Source: Parapedobacter pyrenivorans
Lineage (GTDB): Bacteria; Bacteroidota; Bacteroidia; Sphingobacteriales; Sphingobacteriaceae
Direction of reading: 5' to 3'
Length of the DNA stretch: 64,000 bases
NCBI RefSeq assembly: GCF_014636865.1
Contig: NZ_BMER01000002.1
Location: 1 to 64,000, forward strand
This document shows positions 39,845-50,836 of the stretch, in pieces (position 1 is the stretch's first letter; the number at the start of each line of letters is the position of its first letter). The position numbers and the translations under genes are program-made. Below the pieces are notes generated by a model. It was not told the origin of the DNA. It did not search any database and saw only the letters and a list, made by a program, of their open reading frames with translations.

Positions 39845-40423
39845 TTATTTTGAGATTTTATCATCCGTCCCCCATTCATAACCACTAACCTCCAGCCCAG
39901 CCAACCCTAATACACGGTCAACAACCGTCGCTGCGATTTCCTCAAAGTTTGCCGGCAAGCTATAAAATGATGGGCTGGCTGGGCAAATGATGCCCCCTGC
40001 TTCGGTCACCGCCAACATATTCCGGATATGGATCAAACTCAACGGTGTTTCTCGAGGCACTACGATGAGCTTCCGTCGCTCTTTAATTATCACATCCGCT
40101 GCACGCGTCGTCAAATCGGATGATGTCCCATTCGCTATCCGTGCCAATGTACCCATAGAGCATGGGCACACAATCATCGTATCGAATTTAGCAGATCCAG
40201 AGGCGAACGGTGCATAGAAATCGTTCTTTTCATAGCAAGTAAAGGGATATTTCGCATAATCATCATTTCCCAATTCGAATCGCCACACATCTTTGGCATT
40301 GTCTGACATGACGACTCCCACCGCCTCCAACTGCGATCCGAGTGCCGACAATTTATCAAGCAGCACTTTCGCGTAGATAGCACCACTAGCTCCGGTTATG
40401 GCAACTACAATCTTCCTTGGCAT
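39845..40423 (-). CDS. ubiX: UbiX-family flavin prenyltransferase
   Basis: 192 residues from ATG 40423 (MPRKIVVAITGASGAIYAKV), chosen because a TAAGTTTG promoter element lies just upstream. Flavin-binding ITGASGAIYA, CPCSMGTLARIANGTSSDL and PRETPLSLIHIRNM are UbiX signatures. It prenylates FMN to the cofactor of UbiD-type decarboxylases. No UbiD gene is in the window. Confidence 0.94.
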   Translation of the reverse strand: MPRKIVVAITGASGAIYAKVLLDKLSALGSQLEAVGVVMSDNAKDVWRFELGNDDYAKYPFTCYEKNDFYAPFASGSAKFDTMIVCPCSMGTLARIANGTSSDLTTRAADVIIKERRKLIVVPRETPLSLIHIRNMLAVTEAGGIICPASPSFYSLPANFEEIAATVVDRVLGLAGLEVSGYEWGTDDKISK

Positions 40424-40438
40424 ATTTTGAATATTTGC

Positions 40439-40446
40439 CAAACTTA
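40439..40446 (-). promoter_or_regulatory. -7 element (TAAGTTTG) of ubiX
   Basis: Minus strand TAAGTTTG, 15 nt upstream of ATG 40423. It supports the shorter start of ubiX. Confidence 0.5.
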
Positions 40447-40644
40447 GATAAATCACCATTCAAATACAAATCGTCGGTTCGAACCAGGCGTTCATCGCGA
40501 TCGTGTTTCCCTTCGCGTGAATGACGTGTATGACAGTCAAGGGCCCCAAGCTTCGTAAGAAAACAGTGTTGGTTAAATTAGAAATTCAATAAAAAATCAA
40601 AAAGAATCATATTTTTTAACATTTTTACACCCTAAAACCCGTCG

Positions 40645-40718
40645 AAAAAAAAAGGGCCGAATAAGTGAATATTCGACCCTACATCTACCTATGAAAAACA
40701 TGCCCTTTGGGAGGGCAT
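40645..40718 (-). ncRNA. Candidate small RNA: two hairpins and a terminator
   Basis: Predicted transcript of about 74 nt on the minus strand, beginning just downstream of a consensus promoter. Hairpin 1: ATGCCC (40718-40713 side) with GGGCAT (40705-40700), 7-nt loop, followed by GUUUUUC. Hairpin 2: a 10-bp stem (40679-40670 with 40663-40654, one G-U pair, 6-nt loop) followed by nine U (40653-40645), a strong terminator. No open reading frame of note. It occupies a 456-nt gene-free stretch between ubiX and the ankyrin gene. No Rfam family recognised. A leader for ubiX is less likely because ubiX has its own promoter 200 nt on. Confidence 0.6.
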
Positions 40719-40720
40719 TA

Positions 40721-40751
40721 CAAAAGTACAGCTAAGATTGATGATACAAAA
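40721..40751 (-). promoter_or_regulatory. Promoter of the candidate small RNA
   Basis: Minus strand TTTTG (40751-40747), an 18-nt spacer, and TACTTTTG (40728-40721). Start predicted at 40718-40715, exactly at the base of the first hairpin. Confidence 0.6.
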
Positions 40752-40879
40752 CAATTAGTAGCTTAAAAAACGTTTTTGTAGACGTAATACTACAAGAACA
40801 CGAAGGTTTAACTTTTTTTGATAATTTTTTAGTTAATTCGTCCCAGTATTTGTAAGCGTTGACCACCCAAATTGAAAAA

Positions 40880-41530
40880 ATGAGTCTTAGTCTATTGGAA
40901 GAATATATCGAAACCGGCAACAGTATGGCCATCGAAGATTTGTTGAATGGAAACCCGGGGTTAAGCAAACAGAAGACCAGTCACGACATCTCTCCTCTTT
41001 TGTTAGCCTGCTATTATAATAAGCCACAAATTGTCAAGGCGCTCCTTAAACACATCGATGAGCTCACAATTCATGAAGCTGCCGCTGCCAACCTATTGGA
41101 GCAGGTACAGGCAATGATTGAAGACAAGTCTGACTTATTGGATGACGTCTCTGATCATGGCTTTACCCCATTGGGCATGGCAACTCATTTCGGGAATGAA
41201 GATATTGTCCGGTTTTTATTATCCGCGGGCGCCGACCCCAATATCCAATCCCAAAACGGCTATAACGTGTACCCACTTCATGCAGCCATCGGATCGGGGT
41301 TTGATAGCATCGCCAAAATGCTTGTTGAAGCCGGAGCAGAGGTAAATGTACTGCAGACATCACGGGCGAGTCCATTGCATCTTGCAGCGCAAAATGGCAA
41401 TATTGACCTTATCATCCTATTACTGGAAAATGGCGCGCTTATAGCTATTAAAAATGATATGGGCAAAACGGCGTCAGACCTTGCAGCAGAAAAGGGACAT
41501 ACAGAAATCGCAGCAATCCTGAAAGCGTGA
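40880..41530 (+). CDS. Ankyrin-repeat protein
   Basis: 216 residues from ATG 40880 (MSLSLLEEYIETGNS); a TTG seven codons upstream is not preferred. About five ankyrin repeats, recognisable from SPLLLACYYNKPQIVKALLK, TPLGMATHFGNEDIVRFLLS, YPLHAAIGSGFDSIAKMLVE, SPLHLAAQNGNIDLIILLLE and TASDLAAEKGHTEIAAIL. No signal peptide, so cytosolic. Ankyrin repeats bind proteins; partner unknown. Confidence 0.9.
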   Translation: MSLSLLEEYIETGNSMAIEDLLNGNPGLSKQKTSHDISPLLLACYYNKPQIVKALLKHIDELTIHEAAAANLLEQVQAMIEDKSDLLDDVSDHGFTPLGMATHFGNEDIVRFLLSAGADPNIQSQNGYNVYPLHAAIGSGFDSIAKMLVEAGAEVNVLQTSRASPLHLAAQNGNIDLIILLLENGALIAIKNDMGKTASDLAAEKGHTEIAAILKA

Positions 41531-41542
41531 TCACCTTTCTTC

Positions 41543-41767
41543 TCAAACGTCCCAAAGCCGATGACGCATGCGTTTAATATAATTCCGGAAGTCCAATACG
41601 ATCCCGGCTAGAAAATAAAAGATAATCGGAAAGCCAACAGCCAAAAAAGAGGTATAGATGAAGAATAGGCGAAGCTTAGAAATGGAGATACCTAAGCGCT
41701 CACCGATATAGGTACATACGCCAAAGGAACGCTTTTCGAAAAACAAGAGAATCCGGTTTACCATCAT
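41543..41767 (-). CDS. PspC-domain protein
   Basis: 74 residues. PspC-like core GVCTYIGERLGISISKLRLF followed by a membrane helix (TSFLAVGFPIIFYFLAGIVL) and a basic tail. PspC proteins regulate envelope-stress responses or act as small membrane adaptors. It overlaps the DUF2851 stop by 4 nt (ATGA), so it is translationally coupled and is the last gene of the ribD operon. Confidence 0.85.
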   Translation of the reverse strand: MMVNRILLFFEKRSFGVCTYIGERLGISISKLRLFFIYTSFLAVGFPIIFYFLAGIVLDFRNYIKRMRHRLWDV

Positions 41768-43053
41768 TCATTGTGTTTGATTAACTGCAAGCCCACTCCA
41801 CAATCCAAGCATTTTCTTTTATCACAGTAAAACGCTTTCATTTGTAACAACGCTTGTGACTCGGCCGCCTGCTGCACCTGTACACCCAACGTCGAAAAAC
41901 GCTTCAACACGGCATTATCCTCCGCTTTCAGATTTTCCAACAAGGCTATAGCCCGGTAAATATACGTTTCTTTACCAATATATTTACCATAAGCAAATAA
42001 TATACCAGCCACGGCATTAATCAGCAATGTATCAATAGATCGACCACCCAATTGGCTTCCGTGGCGAGATAATGTACCGTCAAAGCGATAACGTTTCTCC
42101 CAATAGGAATTGATGGGAAGATCGTCAAACAACGCTTTCAAGGCAGGGGGATCCTTCATTTCGACGATGGTTGAAAAAAGCTGTACGGTTCGCTTGCAAA
42201 GCGCCGCCAACTGTGCGATGCGAATAGATGGAAAGTTGCCAGGACGCGTACGCATAAATTTCCACATTGAAGCATCCATAGGTCGCAGTGAGTGGAGCCT
42301 TCGTAGATGGCTGTATTCCCGTTGCAATTCTCGGGGATAGTCATCCTCAAAATCGACATTTTCCAACATGCCTGCTTGTCCAAAAAAAAGCGCCTCGATA
42401 GCCAAAGGGTTACGCTTGTACTTTGCAAGTATCAATTGTGGTAAGCTTCGGGCGAGTTGTTCAAATGCCAAAGCGTTCACTTTAAACCCAAAGCAACGGG
42501 CCATCCATATATAGCACGTGTCCTCCCAGCTCCCTCGCTGTTCAGCTAATAATGCATAAATCGAAGAAACTTTATATTCGAAGCGTTCCACCAGCAAGCG
42601 AGATAGCCATTGTGACAAATGGAATGGCGGGGTAAGATGAATAAGTCTTTCGCAGGGAATCCAATACATGCCACTCATCAACTCCCGGTATTTCGGAAGA
42701 ATATGATGGGGCATCAACGACTTCAGTTCCAACGCCTCAACCAGCGTGCCATCCTCACGGTATACCGCCTCATCATACTCATACACCACATGCACAATCA
42801 CGTTATTGTAGGCTTTATCCTTATGGTGCTGGTGCCGCTCCCAATCCGAGGCCCGTATATGGATTTCCACATTGCCCACCCATTCGACATCCGCGATAAC
42901 GGCGCGAGCAGCTAAGAAATCAGCGCCTGCATCGTGATTGTGTATGCCCGTATCGAGTATTCTCAGTGTTTTGCCCGACATCGTATTCAACCGCCGTATA
43001 TCATATAGGCGGTATTTCCAGACAAAATGCAATATATCTTCGGACAAGGTCAT
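41764..43053 (-). CDS. DUF2851-family protein
   Basis: 429 residues with the DUF2851 N-terminal signature (ILHFVWKYRLYD, TGIHNHDAGADFLAARAVI, NVEIHIRASDWERH) and a C-terminal Cys cluster (CDKRKCLDCGVGLQ) that may bind zinc. DUF2851 is specific to Bacteroidota and relatives. The motif GNVEIHIRASDW resembles nuclease-type cores, but no function is established. Third-from-last gene of the ribD-ABC operon region. Confidence 0.85.
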   Translation of the reverse strand: MTLSEDILHFVWKYRLYDIRRLNTMSGKTLRILDTGIHNHDAGADFLAARAVIADVEWVGNVEIHIRASDWERHQHHKDKAYNNVIVHVVYEYDEAVYREDGTLVEALELKSLMPHHILPKYRELMSGMYWIPCERLIHLTPPFHLSQWLSRLLVERFEYKVSSIYALLAEQRGSWEDTCYIWMARCFGFKVNALAFEQLARSLPQLILAKYKRNPLAIEALFFGQAGMLENVDFEDDYPRELQREYSHLRRLHSLRPMDASMWKFMRTRPGNFPSIRIAQLAALCKRTVQLFSTIVEMKDPPALKALFDDLPINSYWEKRYRFDGTLSRHGSQLGGRSIDTLLINAVAGILFAYGKYIGKETYIYRAIALLENLKAEDNAVLKRFSTLGVQVQQAAESQALLQMKAFYCDKRKCLDCGVGLQLIKHNE

Positions 43054-43095
43054 ATAACTTGGTCATAGGTAAGCAAGGCCAAATATATGAATCTC

Positions 43096-43851
43096 TCAAT
43101 AATAATCAAACCACGACACGACTTCGGCATGATCAAGTGCTGACTTCGCGACCGCATCAAAGTCCCTAATAACCCTACCAGTTTCCATTTGGATAAGGCG
43201 TGTTCCGTAGTGAAGCGCTTCACCAATGTTATGGGTAACCAACAAGGCCGTAAGTTTATGGTCCCTGATAATTCTATTGGCAATTTCCATTACCTCTCTT
43301 GCAGACCGGGGGTCCAACGCAGCCGACGGTTCATCGAGCAATAGCACGTCTACGCCAGCCATCACAGTCATCAATAGCGTAAGCGCTTGCCGCTGCCCAC
43401 CACTCAGGGTGCCCATGGGCTGCGCAAGCTTATGCTCTAGTCCCATCTCCAAGGTTGCTACTTTTTCGGCGACCAACTTGCGAAATGTGCCATCCACACC
43501 CAATCTCGCCAATTTAGGCGATTTGCGTAAGGCGGCCATCCTGAAATTGTCCAGAATGCTTAACGAAGCAGCCGTGCCCGTTAATGGATTCTGAAACACG
43601 CGCGCAATCCATTGGCTTCGCCGGTAATCGGGTAATCGCTGGATCTCCTGCGCCCCCAATAGCATTTTACCCCTATCTGGGTAAGCGGTACCTGCAATCA
43701 GGTTGAGCAACGTGCTTTTTCCCGACCCATTAGCTCCGATGAGTACTGTATAACTCCCATCCTCCAGTTGCAGCGTCACATCCTGAACAGCGGTCACCTC
43801 AGTTGCCTTTCCCGTGTTAAATATTTTGGTGATATGCTGAAGTTGTAGCAT
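43096..43851 (-). CDS. ABC transporter ATP-binding protein
   Basis: 251 residues. Walker A GANGSGKST (39-47), signature LSGGQ (149-153), Walker B VLLLDE (169-174), D-loop SAALD. It belongs with the permease encoded 18 nt upstream; the pair resembles the YtrB/TrpX-like uptake modules with BmpA/ABC-substrate-binding lipoproteins. No substrate-binding protein gene is in the operon, so the substrate cannot be named. Confidence 0.9.
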   Translation of the reverse strand: MLQLQHITKIFNTGKATEVTAVQDVTLQLEDGSYTVLIGANGSGKSTLLNLIAGTAYPDRGKMLLGAQEIQRLPDYRRSQWIARVFQNPLTGTAASLSILDNFRMAALRKSPKLARLGVDGTFRKLVAEKVATLEMGLEHKLAQPMGTLSGGQRQALTLLMTVMAGVDVLLLDEPSAALDPRSAREVMEIANRIIRDHKLTALLVTHNIGEALHYGTRLIQMETGRVIRDFDAVAKSALDHAEVVSWFDYY

Positions 43852-43869
43852 GCCGATATCTGTATATAC

Positions 43870-44748
43870 CTATCGCCTATTGAATTCTAAAATCCCTCCA
43901 AACCGTGGCAGGGCTACAATGACCAATACCAACACCGAAGTAGTGAGCTTGAGTAGGTTTGCGTCTACCCCGGCATCCAACGCTAATGCCAACATCAACT
44001 GAAAGGTAATCACGCCGAAAAGCACCCAGCACAACATGGGTGGAATGGCGCGTACTTTTAGGAAATTTATCAGCGTATCGCCAATAATGACGGCCCCCAA
44101 GCCACTGATCACAATACCAATCCCCATATTAATATCTACAAATCCCTGAAACTGGGCCATCAGCGACCCACTCCACGCAACCAGCGCATTGGACATAGCC
44201 AAACCATAAACCTTCATCCGCGTCGTATTTACTCCCTGTGCACGAATCATCGGTTCACTATCTCCGGTAGCACGTAGCGCGATACCGAAGTCGCTGCGTA
44301 ATAGGTAACTCATAGCGAACAATAAGATGACAACAAATAACACCAATACAAACAACGTATTATCATCCGTGCGTGTAAACAGGCCCAATCCTGCAAAAAT
44401 ATCTGCAAATCCCAACAATGGCAGGTTCGATCGCCCCAAAAGCACCAAATTGACCGAATACAGCGCAGTCATCACCAAAATACCGGCCAAGAGTGCATGG
44501 ATACGCAATCCTGTATGGATCAACGCGGTACAACCTCCTGCAAACGCGCCTCCCAACATCGCCAAAAACAATGTAACAAGTGGCGGATAACCATTTGAAA
44601 GCCCCACGGCCGTGATCACCGCACCCAACGTATAGCTCCCATCCGTGGTGATATCCGGGATGTTGAATATTTTCATTGACAGAAAAAGCCCGATTACCAA
44701 CGGGCCAAAACACAACGCCTGAATGATTGCGGCTACATAAAAGTCCAT
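43870..44748 (-). CDS. ABC transporter permease (TrpY/branched-chain-type fold)
   Basis: 292 residues, about eight membrane helices, starting MDFYVAAIIQALCFGPLVIG. The loop NIPDITTDGSYTLGAVIT and FVDINMGIGIVISGLGAVII are typical of the permease family found with tryptophan/tyrosine-type substrate-binding proteins. Its ATG shares one base with the ribD stop (TAATG), and the ATPase gene follows, so they are co-expressed. Substrate uncertain. Confidence 0.88.
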   Translation of the reverse strand: MDFYVAAIIQALCFGPLVIGLFLSMKIFNIPDITTDGSYTLGAVITAVGLSNGYPPLVTLFLAMLGGAFAGGCTALIHTGLRIHALLAGILVMTALYSVNLVLLGRSNLPLLGFADIFAGLGLFTRTDDNTLFVLVLFVVILLFAMSYLLRSDFGIALRATGDSEPMIRAQGVNTTRMKVYGLAMSNALVAWSGSLMAQFQGFVDINMGIGIVISGLGAVIIGDTLINFLKVRAIPPMLCWVLFGVITFQLMLALALDAGVDANLLKLTTSVLVLVIVALPRFGGILEFNRR

Positions 44749-45812
44749 TAACTATTGTTACTATGAATACGATAATAGCTATCCAATCGGTCGTGGCCCA
44801 CGAGCTGGCTCCTCGCACTGGCTGCATGCCATACCGGCGCTGCGATGCCACCACCCCAAGCTTCTGGTGACGTAAATATGCGGGCTTCATCCCATAATCC
44901 TGCATCGATAAATAAATCAAGCGTCTTGCGTCCCCCTTCTACAATAATCGATTGAATGTCCATTAAATAAAGTTGATAGAGAATATTTTGTGGCAAATAC
45001 CAATCGAAATTTTCCAGAGCGAAATATTTGACACTCCCTATCCAGTCCGTCTTTGACGCATTGAAAACGAGGGTTTCGACACTGCTATCGAATAAATTAG
45101 CGTCGGCCGAAACGGCCAGCTGCTTATCAATGAGTATACGTTTCGGATTCCTGCCGCGCCATTCCCGTACCGTCAGCTGCGGATTGTCAACCAACGCAGT
45201 TTTCGCCCCTACCAATACCGCGTCTTCTTCACTGCGCCAACGATGTACCAATTGCTTGGCCTCCGCACCAGTGATCCACCTTTGCGCACCGCCTTCGGGC
45301 GCCATATATCCGTCGGCAGTTTGTGCCCATTTAAGAATGACATAAGGGCGCTGGTGTCTTACCCGGGTGGTAAACCGACGATTTAACCACAGTGCTTCGT
45401 CGGCCAATATTCCCTCTATCACTCGAATTCCAGCCTTTTTCAGGATTTCGATTCCCTGACCATTTACCTGACCAAAAGGATCGCGGCATGCGATGACCAC
45501 CTCGTCTACTTGATGTTCGACCAACAACTTCGCGCAGGGAGGCGTTTTCCCATAGTGGGCGCACGGTTCCAAACTCACATACATGGTTGAATTGCGGAAT
45601 ATGTCTGCAGCACGATCGCCAAACTTGCGAAGGGTCTCTTCTATGACCAGCGCCTCTGCATGCGGACCTCCAAATCGTTGGTGGTAATTTTCGGCAATGA
45701 TCTTTCCTTCATGTAACAATAATGCCCCAACCATCGGGTTAGGGCTCACCGATCCCATACCCAGCCGGGCCAATTCCAGGCAGCGTCGCATGTAAAGTTC
45801 ATGTTCCTGCAT
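44748..45812 (-). CDS. ribD: Bifunctional riboflavin biosynthesis deaminase/reductase RibD
   Basis: 354 residues. Deaminase domain zinc site: H51 and E53 in GPHAEALVIEE, C84 and C93 in EPCAHYGKTPPC. Reductase domain starts near 150 (RPYVILKWAQTADGYMA) with GAKTALVDNPQLTVR and IIVEGGRKTLDLFID. It catalyses the second and third steps of riboflavin synthesis. First gene of a leftward operon with an ABC transporter, DUF2851 and PspC; a flavin-related cargo for the transporter is possible but unproven. The -7 element TATGTTTG is only 4 nt from the ATG. Confidence 0.96.
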   Translation of the reverse strand: MQEHELYMRRCLELARLGMGSVSPNPMVGALLLHEGKIIAENYHQRFGGPHAEALVIEETLRKFGDRAADIFRNSTMYVSLEPCAHYGKTPPCAKLLVEHQVDEVVIACRDPFGQVNGQGIEILKKAGIRVIEGILADEALWLNRRFTTRVRHQRPYVILKWAQTADGYMAPEGGAQRWITGAEAKQLVHRWRSEEDAVLVGAKTALVDNPQLTVREWRGRNPKRILIDKQLAVSADANLFDSSVETLVFNASKTDWIGSVKYFALENFDWYLPQNILYQLYLMDIQSIIVEGGRKTLDLFIDAGLWDEARIFTSPEAWGGGIAAPVWHAASARSQLVGHDRLDSYYRIHSNNS

Positions 45813-45816
45813 GACG

Positions 45817-45824
45817 CAAACATA
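45817..45824 (-). promoter_or_regulatory. -7 element (TATGTTTG) of ribD
   Basis: Minus strand TATGTTTG, 4 nt from the ribD ATG at 45812; transcription would start on or next to the start codon. No consensus -33 at the usual spacing. Confidence 0.5.
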
Positions 45825-45861
45825 CTTAAAAATGTTCTCTTTTTATGGCCTACTTTCCAAG

Positions 45862-46081
45862 CTTAGTCCTCATTAACCCCTTGCCTACCCCTTTTCTACA
45901 CTTCGTTTACACATTTTTTACCTCGTTGGTAGGGAAATGGTAAAGAATTGGTAAGGAGTTGGTAACGCTTTGGTAAGGAATAGGTAAGGAATAGGTAAAC
46001 AAAGGGTAAAGAAAAGGTAAGTGAGAAGTAAGGCAATATTAAGCGAGAAGTAAGCACTTGGTAAGCAAAAGGTAGGGAAAA
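45862..46081. repeat. 11-bp phased degenerate repeat array with TA steps
   Basis: From 45928 to 46081 there are 14 units of exactly 11 bp, each beginning GGTA, AGTA or ATTA (consensus about GGTAAGGAATT), with no insertion or deletion. To the left, units with the complementary sense (TTTACACATTT, TCTACACTTCG, CCTACCCCTTT) carry the same phase. In all, 18 TA steps lie exactly 11 bp apart between 45886 and 46074; two more (45864, 45874) are off by one. The plus strand has TAA in most right-hand units and so carries stops in all frames; the minus strand is open in at least two. It lies between divergent ribD and prmC. Confidence 0.85.
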
Positions 46082-46084
46082 TCG

Positions 46085-46116
46085 TTTGGCCAACCCGGAT
46101 GTATAGCGTATGTTTG
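46085..46116 (+). promoter_or_regulatory. Promoter of prmC
   Basis: TTTG (46085-46088), a 20-nt spacer and TATGTTTG (46109-46116), a perfect consensus. The preferred ATG at 46122 begins 5 nt after the element, predicting a leaderless or nearly leaderless mRNA; the ATG at 46110 lies inside the element and is excluded. Confidence 0.7.
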
Positions 46117-46121
46117 TATTC

Positions 46122-47000
46122 ATGCAATCCATCGCAGCAATCGAGCAGCAGTTCGCTAACGAACTGGCAGACCTGTATGATGCCAGTGAAGTCCGGCAAC
46201 TCTGTTATCTGCTTTTTGAAGATCGATATGGGTGGTCCAAAACGAATTATCTACTCAACCGACAGGCATCGGTAGACCAACAGGACATCACCTGGCTTAA
46301 CACCATGCTGTCGTCTTTGAAAAAGGCCAGACCAATTCAGTACATTCTTGGCCATGCATGGTTTATGGGAATGAGACTGACGGTCAACGAGACCGTGTTA
46401 ATACCCAGGCCCGAAACGGAGGAACTGGTAGACCTCATCATCAGGCAACACGGGGATGCAAAAACCCTTTCTTTACGCATCATCGATATCGGTACCGGAA
46501 GCGGTTGCATTGCCATCGCGCTGAAAAAAGCGCTGCCACAAGCTGCGGTATATGCGGTTGACATCTCGGCAGATGCCTTGCATACTGCCCGGCAAAATGC
46601 GGCAAGCCAATCAGTCGACATTGAATTCATCAATGCGGATATTTTGGAATGGGATACGGTTTTCGATCACACATCGACATTTGATATCGTGGTCAGCAAT
46701 CCACCCTATATTACCGCCACCGAGCAAAATGATATGCACCGGAATGTGCTCAACCATGAACCGCACATGGCCCTTTTTGTACAGGGAAATGCGCCCCTTT
46801 TGTATTATGAGCGCATTGCGGCGTTTGCCACCGAGCACTTGCGGACCGGAGGTGGCCTATATTTTGAAATTAATCGTGACTATGGACAAGCCTTGTGCGA
46901 TCTCCTGCATAAGAAAGGGTTTAATGACGTAGCACTCCATCAAGATATACAGGGTGCTGATCGTATGGTCCATGCTAAAAAGTCTATAACCAATCCTTAA
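46122..47000 (+). CDS. prmC: Peptide chain release factor N5-glutamine methyltransferase
   Basis: 292 residues from ATG 46122. SAM-binding IDIGTGSGCIAIAL (about 121-134) and the catalytic SNPPYI motif (about 191-196), with the N-terminal helical substrate-binding domain carrying ETVLIPRPETEELV. It methylates the GGQ glutamine of release factors 1 and 2. Start chosen because the promoter overlaps the earlier ATG at 46110. The downstream amidohydrolase begins 6 nt later, so they may be co-transcribed. Confidence 0.95.
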   Translation: MQSIAAIEQQFANELADLYDASEVRQLCYLLFEDRYGWSKTNYLLNRQASVDQQDITWLNTMLSSLKKARPIQYILGHAWFMGMRLTVNETVLIPRPETEELVDLIIRQHGDAKTLSLRIIDIGTGSGCIAIALKKALPQAAVYAVDISADALHTARQNAASQSVDIEFINADILEWDTVFDHTSTFDIVVSNPPYITATEQNDMHRNVLNHEPHMALFVQGNAPLLYYERIAAFATEHLRTGGGLYFEINRDYGQALCDLLHKKGFNDVALHQDIQGADRMVHAKKSITNP

Positions 47001-47006
47001 TAACCC

Positions 47007-48647
47007 ATGGGCAGGAAATTATCTTACCTGATGATTAGCTTAACCGGGGCGGTGCTTTCATGCGATGGATCCAAGCATGTCGATCTGATTGTACACAATG
47101 CCCTGGTTTACACAGTCGATTCGGCGTTTACAAAAGCCGAAGCATTTGCGGTGCGGAACGGCGAATTTATTGCTGTCGGTACGTCCGCTGAAATCCTATC
47201 TCGGTACGACGCCGAGGAAACGTTGAATGCATACGGACAGCCAGTATACCCGGGGTTTTATGACGCTCATGCTCATTTTTTTGGCTTCGCACAGACACTG
47301 GCCCAAGCCGATCTAGCCGGCGCCACCTCGTTCACTGAAATTATCGACCGACTCAAGGCATTCAGGGCCGAACATCCCGAAGCGCCGTGGCTGTTGGGAC
47401 GGGGATGGGATCAAAACCTCTGGGTAAGCCGGGCGTTCCCCGACAGGGAGGCTCTGGATACTGAGTTTCCAGATATCCCAGTGTACCTAGTGCGCATTGA
47501 CGGACACGCTGCGTTGGCCAATGGAAAGGCACTGGATCTGGCAGGCATTGTTGGTCCCGTCACCGTTGAAGGCGGTTTGGTGGAAGTGAGAAACGGACAG
47601 CCAACCGGCATTTTGGTTGACAACGCCATGGAACTTGTAGTGGCTAACGTCCCGCACCCAACTGTCTCAGAACTCGTGCAGTTATTGATAAAGGCAGAGG
47701 CCGCCTGCTTGGCTGTTGGCCTTACCACAGTGAGTGACGCCGGCCTTGACCGACCCGCAATCAACTTACTGGACAGCTTGTACAAAAAAGGGCGACTCCG
47801 TATCCGCAACAATGCTATGATCGGATTATCGGATGAAAACCTCGATTACTATCTCGCAGCAGGTCCCTATGTGAGTGAGCGGTTCACTGCTCACACTTTC
47901 AAAATATTGGCCGATGGCGCCCTTGGATCGCGCGGTGCCTGCTTGTTGCATCCTTATTCGGACGCCCGCACCGCTGGCTTCCTCCTGTCAAGCCCACAGA
48001 CCATCGACTCAGCAATCGCTCGCATTGCTTCCAGCGAATTCCAGGTTGCCACACACGCTATTGGCGATTCCACCAACCGCCTGATACTGGATATATACGG
48101 AAAGCATCTCGGCGGTAAGAACGACCGTAGGTGGCGTATTGAACATGCCCAAATCGTATCGCCGCAAGACTTCGAAAAATTTGGCAGGCACTCCATTATT
48201 CCTTCGGTACAACCCACGCATGCCACTTCGGATATGTATTGGGCTGGCGACCGGGTCGGACCCGACCGTTTAAAAGGCGGCTATGCATACAAGCATTTGC
48301 TCGACCAATCGGGAATATTGGCTTTGGGCAGTGACTTTCCTGTAGAGCATATCAATCCACTCTACGGTTTTCATGCAGCTGTGGCCCGTGTAGATGAGGA
48401 TGGTTATCCTGAGGGCGGCTTCCAGCCGGAAAATGCCATAGACCGCGAAGCCGCCTTGCGGGGCATGACGATATGGGCCGCCTACGCGGTCTTCGAAGAA
48501 AACACCAAGGGAAGTATCGAAGTCGGGAAAAAAGCCGATTTTGTCAGATTAGAAAAAGATATCATGACGGCGGCGATAGGCGAGTTGCGTAGCGTTGAGG
48601 TGATGCAAACCGTGATAGCGGGTGAAACGGTATATCAAAAAGAATAG
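47007..48647 (+). CDS. Amidohydrolase family protein (YtcJ-like), probable lipoprotein
   Basis: 546 residues. N-terminal lipobox (LTGAVLSC, Cys near 19) suggests membrane attachment. Amidohydrolase metal motif DAHAH (YPGFYDAHAHFFGF), WLLGRGWDQNLW, ILADGALGSRGA, ATHAIGD, RIEHAQIV and ALGSDFPVEHINP are typical of YtcJ/LAF3-like metal hydrolases. It probably hydrolyses an amide or related bond of an external compound; substrate unknown. Confidence 0.92.
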   Translation: MGRKLSYLMISLTGAVLSCDGSKHVDLIVHNALVYTVDSAFTKAEAFAVRNGEFIAVGTSAEILSRYDAEETLNAYGQPVYPGFYDAHAHFFGFAQTLAQADLAGATSFTEIIDRLKAFRAEHPEAPWLLGRGWDQNLWVSRAFPDREALDTEFPDIPVYLVRIDGHAALANGKALDLAGIVGPVTVEGGLVEVRNGQPTGILVDNAMELVVANVPHPTVSELVQLLIKAEAACLAVGLTTVSDAGLDRPAINLLDSLYKKGRLRIRNNAMIGLSDENLDYYLAAGPYVSERFTAHTFKILADGALGSRGACLLHPYSDARTAGFLLSSPQTIDSAIARIASSEFQVATHAIGDSTNRLILDIYGKHLGGKNDRRWRIEHAQIVSPQDFEKFGRHSIIPSVQPTHATSDMYWAGDRVGPDRLKGGYAYKHLLDQSGILALGSDFPVEHINPLYGFHAAVARVDEDGYPEGGFQPENAIDREAALRGMTIWAAYAVFEENTKGSIEVGKKADFVRLEKDIMTAAIGELRSVEVMQTVIAGETVYQKE

Positions 48648-48733
48648 TAGGCTAGGTAATCAGAGCACGTTGAAACGCTTAGTTACTGAAACAAAAGGCC
48701 TTAATCATTAATATGAAATTATCTGAAATTTCT

Positions 48734-48765
48734 TTTGGACGATACTGCTGATAATTCTATCTTTG
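48734..48765 (+). promoter_or_regulatory. Promoter of tRNA-Lys
   Basis: TTTG (48734-48737), a 20-nt spacer and TATCTTTG (48758-48765), a perfect consensus, about 50 nt before the tRNA. Confidence 0.7.
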
Positions 48766-48814
48766 CACCACTTTCCAAAACAGGAAAGGCGTTCCTGCGA
48801 CAGGCAAAAGCAAT

Positions 48815-48887
48815 GAATCCGTAGCTCAGCTGGTAGAGCAATACACTTTTAATGTATGGGTCCTGGGTTCGAATCCCAGCGGGTTCA
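48815..48887 (+). tRNA. tRNA-Lys (TTT)
   Basis: 73 nt. Acceptor GAATCCG pairs with CGGGTTC (one T-G), D-arm GCTC/GAGC, anticodon stem ATACA/TGTAT with loop CTTTTAA (anticodon TTT), T-arm CTGGG-TTCGAAT-CCCAG, discriminator A. CCA is not fully encoded. The accessory island begins directly downstream. Confidence 0.97.
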
Positions 48888-48893
48888 CCTCTT

Positions 48894-48931
48894 GGGACAA
48901 AGCAGAAAAATCTGTCTTTGTCCCTTTTTTT
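48894..48931 (+). terminator. Terminator of tRNA-Lys
   Basis: GGGACAAAG (48894-48902) pairs with CTTTGTCCC (48916-48924), with an additional CAGA/TCTG inside, followed by seven T. Confidence 0.9.
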
Positions 48932-49082
48932 ACACCTCCTCAACCCCTTGTTAATCAGATTGATATATTGAATAAATTAATTCCTTCGAGCGGTTCGAAC
49001 CACGCTATCTTCAAAGAAGCTCTCCATATCTTTTAATATTTCACGATTACTATTTCAGCAGAAGCTCTATGCTTGCAGCCCT

Positions 49083-49549
49083 TCACTCAATGACAATAAG
49101 AATAGTGTCTGGTTCATGTTTTCCCGAAACAAAATGACTTTCTTCATCTTTATGTTGAGGAATAAATAACTTTCCACAATAAAGGGGATTTCTTATCATA
49201 TGCCAAAAAGTATTTTTTTTGCATTTTAAACCCATATTTCGAGCGGTCTTCCAGATTTGTTCCGTACTAAAAATTCCTTTCGCAATCTCATTGAATGCCC
49301 AAATAACAATACTTGCTTCGGGTGCTTTACGTGCAACATATTTTGGTCCATTTTCATATACTTTATTCACATATCCCACCGGTGCTAATCCCATTATACG
49401 TCCCTCTTTTCTTGTTCTTCTCATCCCATAGAAAACATTTAATGACCGACGGTCATGCTCCACTTCGGAAGCGGCAAGATAAAACGCCAACATCATCTTG
49501 TTCTCAGGTATTATAAATCCAATGGCTGTTCTATAGCCTGGGGCTTTCC
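49083..49549 (-). pseudogene. Serine recombinase (resolvase family) remnant, frameshifted
   Basis: Middle part of a Bacteroidota large serine recombinase: QAIEQPLDL in one frame, then, after a frameshift near 49511-49520, IPENKMMLAFYLAASEVE, RRSLNVFYGMRRTRKEGR, LAPVGYVNK and a recombinase-domain segment (MIRNPLYCGKLFIP, HFVSGKHEP). The N-terminal catalytic domain and the C-terminus are missing. It marks the tRNA-proximal edge of the island. Family members mobilise integrative elements; this copy is dead. Confidence 0.75.
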
Positions 49550-49843
49550 TTGCCCTCTTACATCGAAAAGAATCCCAATAGTTCCTTGTCTGTTTTTATC
49601 AACGTAGTGCTGGGCAAACCCATGATGGTGTCTGGGATATGGATGCTGTTGCTGGGCAATATTATTCCCGGAACAAGGGATCAAAGAGGAATGAAGGACT
49701 GGCACACGAATTAAGAGTACAGCAACCTGAAGGATGAGTCATCTGCTGCAATCGTAAAATGATAGCGGAGTATCAATCTGTCTTTTTGTATATTGGTATG
49801 ATAAATGAAAAGAACAAAAAAATAGTATTGAGCATTTAAAATA
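49550..49843. other. No recognisable gene
   Basis: A plus-strand open stretch ending at 49713 encodes a hydrophobic tail (KPMMVSGIWMLLLGNIIPG) that could be the end of a lost membrane protein, but I cannot assign it. No RNA gene or repeat seen. Confidence 0.4.
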
Positions 49844-50836
49844 ATGAAAAGGGAGCAGCAACAATTACAGGTGTCATCCCTAATACGAAGTGCTATGTGC
49901 AGGATTCTGGTTCTTGTTACATTTTTATTGAGTTCATGTCATGGAAGATCCGATAAAGTTTCAAAGATTGCTGATACAACCGGAACAGAAATAAGGGCTT
50001 TTGAAGGACATAGTAAAGAAGTATCCTGTGAAAGACTGGTGTCGGATTTAGTCCGTTCCAGTAATGCTACCGCATTTAAGCATTTTGGTGATACAACGGT
50101 AAGGATCCGAATAGCTTCTATGACTCCTGACAAAGCCACAATCAAGCTATACGTTATCCAGGATGTTTCCGAGAATGCGGCGGAAAGGCGACTGACGGAG
50201 CAGGCCATAGGCTGGCTGGAATTTTATAGGACAAGCGGCAGGCTTATGGATATCACAAACGATCCTGATCGACGGGAGGAACTACGTTACGACAAAAATA
50301 CCCTTAAAGGGCACGATATTTTCATCCTATGCAGTCCCGTGGTTGCGGCTGCCAAGCCCGGCACCGATTATGAGTCAAGGGACGTCATGCTCGAAAAAGA
50401 TATCCGGTTCAACGGTAAATTGAAGCGATTTTTCACCCTTGCCGAGTTTGAACAGGTCTATGGCCAACCCGATAGCGTCAGACTGCTGAAGGATGAGGCG
50501 CCCTGTGTTACCATCTTTGGTACAGAAGCGCCGGACGATAAATACCTGTATAAGAACGGTTCACGTTTTGAATCCAGTAAGGACAGTGTAGCGATGGATG
50601 AATACTGGTTCCTGAACGGAAATTTTATCACGTACAAAGGCATCAAGATAGATGAAGGGACAACCATGGACGATATACAACAACTGTTTCCTGCCGCTGT
50701 AAGAGGAAGGTTGGGCCTTGATAAAGAGGGCGAACTGTGGGTCGTTAAGCTAAAGAGCGATGTTACTTATGGGCACATCAAACTGTTTTTTAAAAACGAC
50801 AGGGTTTATTTTATGCATTGGTGGTTACCCTGTTAA
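49844..50836 (+). CDS. Hypothetical lipoprotein of the immunity island
   Basis: 330 residues with lipobox (VTFLLSSC, Cys 32); an internal ATG at 49895 gives a more standard signal peptide. The rest is soluble and mixed alpha/beta (VSDLVRSSNATAFKHFGD, LTEQAIGWLEFYRTSGRLMD, VMLEKDIRFNGKLKRFFTLA). No family recognised. First complete gene of the island; the next lipoprotein gene starts 17 nt after its stop, so they are probably co-transcribed. Confidence 0.8.
   Translation: MKREQQQLQVSSLIRSAMCRILVLVTFLLSSCHGRSDKVSKIADTTGTEIRAFEGHSKEVSCERLVSDLVRSSNATAFKHFGDTTVRIRIASMTPDKATIKLYVIQDVSENAAERRLTEQAIGWLEFYRTSGRLMDITNDPDRREELRYDKNTLKGHDIFILCSPVVAAAKPGTDYESRDVMLEKDIRFNGKLKRFFTLAEFEQVYGQPDSVRLLKDEAPCVTIFGTEAPDDKYLYKNGSRFESSKDSVAMDEYWFLNGNFITYKGIKIDEGTTMDDIQQLFPAAVRGRLGLDKEGELWVVKLKSDVTYGHIKLFFKNDRVYFMHWWLPC

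Follow-up and report, generated by a model that had tools for sequence, protein, structure and literature searches.

Arrays of 11-bp units in two opposed arms form a dispersed intergenic family in Parapedobacter and its relatives

The closest described counterparts of the array reported here are direct-repeat sites bound by regulators, by filament-forming proteins and by ParR, together with the dispersed intergenic repeats. Protomers of Mtb PhoP stand head to tail on 11-bp direct repeats, each with a 7-bp motif and a 4-bp spacer (PMC4832192). OmpR/PhoB boxes resemble our arrays in their direct repeats, 11-bp period and head-to-tail order, the helix of PhoP lying in the major groove and its wing in the minor groove. 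However, they comprise two units at promoters, whereas our arrays comprise 10-25 units plus a reversed arm and occupy any intergenic setting, the copies between convergent genes not lying upstream of a promoter. BldC forms a winged-helix filament on direct repeats (PMC5859096), and RdfS a winged-helix filament that follows a left-handed superhelix (PMC11963761). The filaments of BldC, Xis and RdfS are like the assembly proposed below in their variable number of direct repeats, in a span of about one turn for each protomer on long sites, in head-to-tail order and in the superhelix, and repeats in variable number, about one per turn, are what we find. Unlike our elements, these systems have neither an inverted two-arm design nor a dispersed repeat family, and the repeats of BldC, 9 bp long at whiI, show weak conservation. 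ParR of plasmid R1 binds 11-bp repeats, and the recognition repeats of such centromeres differ sharply between families (PMC9426499). The parC site of ParMRC in plasmid R1 is likewise an array of direct repeats of about 10-11 bp, but it is a plasmid locus beside the parM/parR operon, whereas here several chromosomal copies exist and no parM or parR was seen near them, judging the window neighbours (ribD and prmC) by Pfam and the ORF lists of the other arrays by eye. REP/BIME and other dispersed intergenic repeats are also multi-copy, intergenic, palindromic and found in any gene orientation, but lack 11-bp phased unit arrays, while in Parapedobacter both locus and register of the arrays are conserved. 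The parS, Noc and SlmA sites would be analogous in logic to the wider, doubtful version of a chromosomal multi-site platform considered at the end.

The array between ribD and prmC

The window, that is the whole 64-kb stretch of Parapedobacter pyrenivorans DNA analysed, contains one array, which occupies the intergenic space from ribD to prmC, two genes transcribed divergently, and ends before the promoter boxes of both. These boxes are of the Bacteroidota type, whose -7 consensus is TAnnTTTG. The features are as follows.

44748..45812, minus strand: ribD, neighbour outside the element (Pfam RibD_C 1.6e-34, dCMP_cyt_deam_1 1.4e-15)
45817..45824, minus strand: promoter-like -7 box of ribD, CAAACATA (minus strand: TATGTTTG), outside the array, read against the consensus
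45864-45865: extra in-phase TA beyond the left arm, from the sequence
45884..45927, minus strand: left (short) arm of four reversed units, CCTACCCCTTT TCTACACTTCG TTTACACATTT TTTACCTCGTT
45917..45932: strand-sense switch (dyad), TTTACC-TCGTT-GGTAG, from the alignment of 25 arrays
45928..46026, plus strand: right (long) arm of nine GGTA(A/G)nnnnnn units, from the sequence, Tandem Repeats Finder and the array alignment
46027..46059, plus strand: three variant units AGTAAG / ATTAAG / AGTAAG, a feature of most arrays of the genus
46060..46081, plus strand: terminal units GGTAAGCAAAA GGTAGGGAAAA
46085..46116, plus strand: promoter-like boxes of prmC, TTTGG at 46085-46089 and TATGTTTG at 46109-46116, directly 3' of the array
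46122..47000, plus strand: prmC, neighbour outside the element (Pfam MTS 2.2e-17, PrmC_N 8e-09)

The start of prmC is placed at 46110 by the ORF finder and is likely 46122 by alignment with two related species (G003 and G004); its -7 box is kept in G003, G004 and G005.

The original prediction described eighteen TA steps exactly 11 bp apart, and we reproduce them as one consecutive run from 45886 to 46073. Such runs reach at most 4 steps in the rest of the window and at most 5 in 100 Markov-resampled windows of 64 kb. Taken over nine units, the period-11 column information is 14.9 bits at 45926, against 6.9 at the next best site of the window and a maximum of 7.6 in 100 resampled windows; no other period from 7 to 15 exceeds 8.6 (scaled) at any place in the window. 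From 45928, fourteen units begin with GGTA, AGTA or ATTA, as had been claimed. To their left stand four units of reversed sense, at 45884 (CCTACCCC..), 45895 (TCTACAC..), 45906 (TTTACAC..) and 45917 (TTTACC..), so that the predicted change of strand sense with phase kept is also found, the switch lying at 45928. The TA of the left-arm units and the C after it are conserved between orthologous array pairs. The 11-bp phasing and the switch are far beyond chance. Tandem Repeats Finder recovers the same array, and our sequence model R1 matches it at 45907-45991 (E 6.5e-20).

Other parts of the original prediction need qualification. The minus strand is indeed open, with ORFs of 78 and 93 aa, but this is a trivial outcome because the unit carries TA and then C on the minus strand. 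We thus reject a coding reading, since the open frames are a by-product of the unit, and gain or loss of a unit shifts the frame. All TA steps were thought to face one side of the DNA. B-DNA has a helical repeat of about 10.5 bp; steps at 11 bp therefore rotate by about 17 degrees with each unit, which adds up to almost one turn across the 18 units. For the steps to share a side, the DNA would have to be unwound to 11 bp per turn or fixed by protein. Static bending by co-facing TA steps is likewise doubtful, as the period is 11 and not 10.5 bp and a sister class of arrays has CG in place of TA.

A dispersed family with several core motifs

Beyond what could be seen from the window, the array is a member of a dispersed family with several core motifs. 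In the P. pyrenivorans genome (G000) the pattern (GGTAAN6)x3 has 45 matches and its reversed control none, and we count six full arrays of this class I and a faint seventh at a contig end, where the GGTAA array (L026) is degenerate and lies within about 500 bp of the end of contig C5. Five of eight other Parapedobacter genomes have class I arrays, namely P. composti, P. koreensis, P. luteus, P. indicus and P. defluvii (G002-G006). The two-armed form is also present in Pedobacter suwonensis, Pedobacter terrae, Pedobacter zeae and Niastella caeni, and Longitalea species have shorter arrays. The sequence model finds class I in 16 of 121 family genomes at E 0.001 and, at E 1e-6, in 2 of 395 genomes of a class-wide sample that doubles as its specificity control, both from this family. 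Class I is thus multi-copy in the genome and in the genus, with near-zero matches in controls.

The 25 aligned arrays are built alike: about 3-4 units of reversed sense, the dyad TTACC-N5-GGTAA, then 7-25 forward units GGTAA(G/A)(G/C)AANN, usually some variant units (AGTAAG/ACTAAG), and finally 2-3 GGTAAGCAA units. Searches of plasmid and phage collections by blastn give no match, which argues against a phage or plasmid origin, with the caveat that the low-complexity filter may mask some matches. In viral contigs a 4-unit pattern mostly finds arrays of 4-5 units without the two-arm design. Phytoplasma genomes (L046, L055, L138) have 11-bp arrays of 8-12 units of GGTAATAAAAT without a reversed arm, which are probably unrelated.

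The related species G001 is without GGTAA arrays and has TCGAA units in 11-bp register upstream of ileS. Pattern search and model together give about 20 such class II elements in G001 (L252-L261, L300-L319). They are about 200 bp long and combine the palindromic core TTCGGAAYGCAAnnnnTTGC with a reversed left arm and position-specific right-arm units (TCGAA-N6). The palindromic core reads TTCGGAACGCAACGGATTGCAC in the copies, which also have a common order of right-arm units. Judged by neighbour proteins, three of these elements stand at loci that carry GGTAA arrays in other species, at ileS and dnaK with both neighbours shared and at htpG with one; chance alone would give about 0.2 shared loci, an estimate from about 17 class I loci, about 20 class II loci and perhaps 2000 intergenic gaps. 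At ileS and dnaK the array orientation is opposite between the two classes.

CGAA arrays of related type are found in G002, G005, G006 and G008, P. pyrenivorans itself has one (L413), and G394, a Bacteroidia genome of another family, has five. In G005 and G006 several TCGAA arrays per genome (L264, L265, L268-L270) have a common unit order and lie just upstream of gene pairs for a thioredoxin-like protein and a TonB receptor. A motif-agnostic scan of 800 kb of G007 gives two weaker arrays on GCGGA, and one of 400 kb of G153 gives one array on TTAGGGTTTA and one on CGAA; these scan arrays are suggestive only, since other periods peak about as high there. The G007 arrays (L366 near 18130, L360 near 5320) are weak AGCGGA-type arrays with inverted arms around a common centre GCTGCTCAAGCG, possibly a third motif class, and the G153 array of TTAGGGTTTA-like units (L392 near 6080), also with inverted arms at 11 bp, may be a fourth. 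The same scan of 400 kb of G014 finds no array of this kind. Strong 14-bp repeat arrays are present in G014 (L380 near 7570, TTCAAGGTTTAAAG; L382 near 14340, GAAACTAnAAACTG), which has no 11-bp arrays. On the whole, the family of dispersed intergenic elements is real. The original prediction knew of no described element of this form, and we likewise find none in the open-access literature searched.

Register, conservation and genomic setting

The original prediction proposed to test whether related genomes keep the phase while the sequence drifts, and this is what we observe. In class I, 382 of 407 GGTA-to-GGTA steps are in 11-bp register (94%), and in class II 185 of 196 steps are. With few exceptions, orthologous or duplicated arrays differ in internal length by 11, 22, 33, 44 or 66 bp, and their flanks have indels of 1, 2, 3, 6, 7, 15, 18 and more bp. 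Furthermore, the units are specific to their position within the array, a reversed arm is present and the loci are orthologous, none of which fits a slippage minisatellite. Between orthologous arrays the long-arm mismatch at unit positions 1 to 11 is 0.11, 0.02, 0, 0, 0.18, 0.30, 0.14, 0.14, 0.04, 0.30 and 0.28. The central GTA (positions 2-4) thus shows 0-2% mismatch and position 9 shows 4%, against about 30% at positions 6, 10 and 11. This purifying pattern, with positions 2-4 and 9 frozen amid drifting ones, is the pattern of protein contacts on one face of the DNA.

At ribD-prmC, G000, G003 and G004 carry the array, and G005 has the same gene order but no array. Five species have the array at ileS. 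Neighbour genes of the arrays include dnaK, htpG, clpC and ileS, and several arrays sit directly behind terminator-like hairpins. The G001 elements lie between tandem genes in 11 cases, divergent genes in 4 and convergent genes in 4, which is near the random intergenic expectation and therefore makes a promoter-bound role unlikely. The suggestion of a spacer insulating two promoters is consequently unsupported as a general role, as copies also lie between convergent and tandem genes. Replication polarity finds no support either, the local GC skew along the long-arm strand being below zero in 12 of the 20 G001 elements and above zero in the other 8.

Arrays of both classes repeatedly adjoin DUF6266 genes (L021, L023, L034, L038, L262, L266, L267, L271), often together with DUF5675 and with an HTH_17/LytTR module, itself duplicated within the genome. 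An HTH_17 gene adjoins three arrays in P. pyrenivorans and also arrays in G003-G005. This gene, the one candidate whose co-occurrence was followed, is rejected as trans factor, being absent (E 1e-6) from the array-bearing G002 and G006 and present in the array-free G007, so that this candidate for the cognate MerR-like/HTH_17 protein of a BldC-like site does not accompany the arrays in every genome.

A proposed platform and its alternatives

The array family is likely functional. The best explanation, which we hold with moderate confidence, is a vertically inherited, dispersed, two-armed platform for the head-to-tail, cooperative assembly of a DNA-binding protein, probably winged-helix-like, with a recognition motif that turns over between species; among the options of the original prediction, the nucleoid-protein or binding-array reading is the best supported, the phase being kept in relatives. 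The element would consist of recognition units (here GGTAA-N6), one per 11 bp, with opposite senses from the central switch, and a small protein would place one protomer per unit and turn. We observe the architecture, the register, the purifying pattern, the dispersal, the conserved loci and the motif classes directly, and we infer the protein, its polymerisation and its role. In the simplest case the protein would be a winged helix whose helix occupies GGTA in the major groove, its wing touching the conserved A half a turn further, at position 9. A unit contacted at 1-4 and 8-9 and repeated every 11 bp would fit the head-to-tail winged-helix proteins PhoP, BldC and RdfS, and also ParR of R1; the winged helix is one among several folds that could fit. 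Assembly would begin near the switch and extend outward into a nucleoprotein filament, and with 11 bp against 10.5 bp per turn the protomers would wind slowly into a superhelix. That GTA and A9 are frozen amid free neighbours is the strongest argument for a bound protein, though homogenisation of units could contribute. Several points count against the platform: the HTH_17 neighbour, the candidate examined, does not qualify as its trans-acting partner, the patchy distribution (16/121; 2/395) is odd for an essential function, and slippage likewise yields whole-unit indels, while the frozen GTA and A9 are not thereby explained.

The alternative that survives best, although we consider it unlikely, is a non-functional dispersed repeat of the MITE/REP/BIME kind with an internal minisatellite, which duplication or transposition would have spread and slippage and gene conversion would keep homogeneous. 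Variable unit numbers, patchy distribution, a common unit order in copies of the same genome (G001 right arms; L284 and L285 of G034) and the near-identical duplicate arrays L021 and L023 would follow from it. It agrees poorly with loci kept across species (ileS in five, ribD-prmC in three), with core positions frozen where others drift, with an arm inversion that stays in register, and with the comparison by eye of G000 and G005 at ribD-prmC, which shows neither a target duplication nor a clean empty site.

An RNA element, with the inverted arms forming a long transcript hairpin or the C-rich strand serving as a Rho-loading site, is improbable. A-form RNA has 11 bp per turn, the arms complement each other, and compared with dinucleotide shuffles the minus strand folds better (z -4.9; plus strand z -1.9); its long-arm transcript is C-rich and G-poor with regularly spaced YC. 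However, arms combined from different arrays match native pairs in folding (native -39.5 against chimeric -40.3 in class I, -70.1 against -67.9 in class II), so there is no pair-specific covariation; arm lengths are unequal, from 4 to 22, the class II motif has no C-over-G bias, several arrays follow terminator-like hairpins, and an Rfam search of 40000-50000 gives no structured-RNA match at gathering score except a tRNA. In sum, the evidence weakens or rules out the readings as RNA hairpin, as coding sequence and as simple slippage. Equally improbable is an over-sized operator by which a response regulator or other transcription factor controls the neighbour genes: the 11-bp direct repeats are an OmpR/PhoB footprint, the array abuts the prmC promoter and the neighbours include dnaK, htpG, clpC and ileS, but convergent settings are frequent, 10-25 units far exceed two, the neighbours have no evident common pathway, and orientation to the gene is variable, with the ileS and dnaK arrays inverted between classes.

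Returning to the protein platform, it perhaps serves to organise the chromosome locally, to insulate it topologically or to tether it, and not to control one promoter, because the elements occupy any intergenic setting. A wider version, a patchy multi-site platform of Bacteroidota in which the word turns over (GGTAA, TCGAA, possibly GCGGA and TTAGGGTTTA) and the register, two-arm layout and some positions are kept, is a doubtful extension. If it is true, it would point to a DNA-binding protein that co-evolves fast, a counterpart in bacteria to centromeres with their rapid evolution. The word change at ileS, dnaK and htpG is a natural experiment on how a protein and all its sites may change together. 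If a protein filament forms, the arrays would be among the very few bacterial chromosomal elements that carry dozens of protomers, one per turn, along two opposed arms and at several places fixed in each genome. The clear unit code should make the partner protein easy to fish for.
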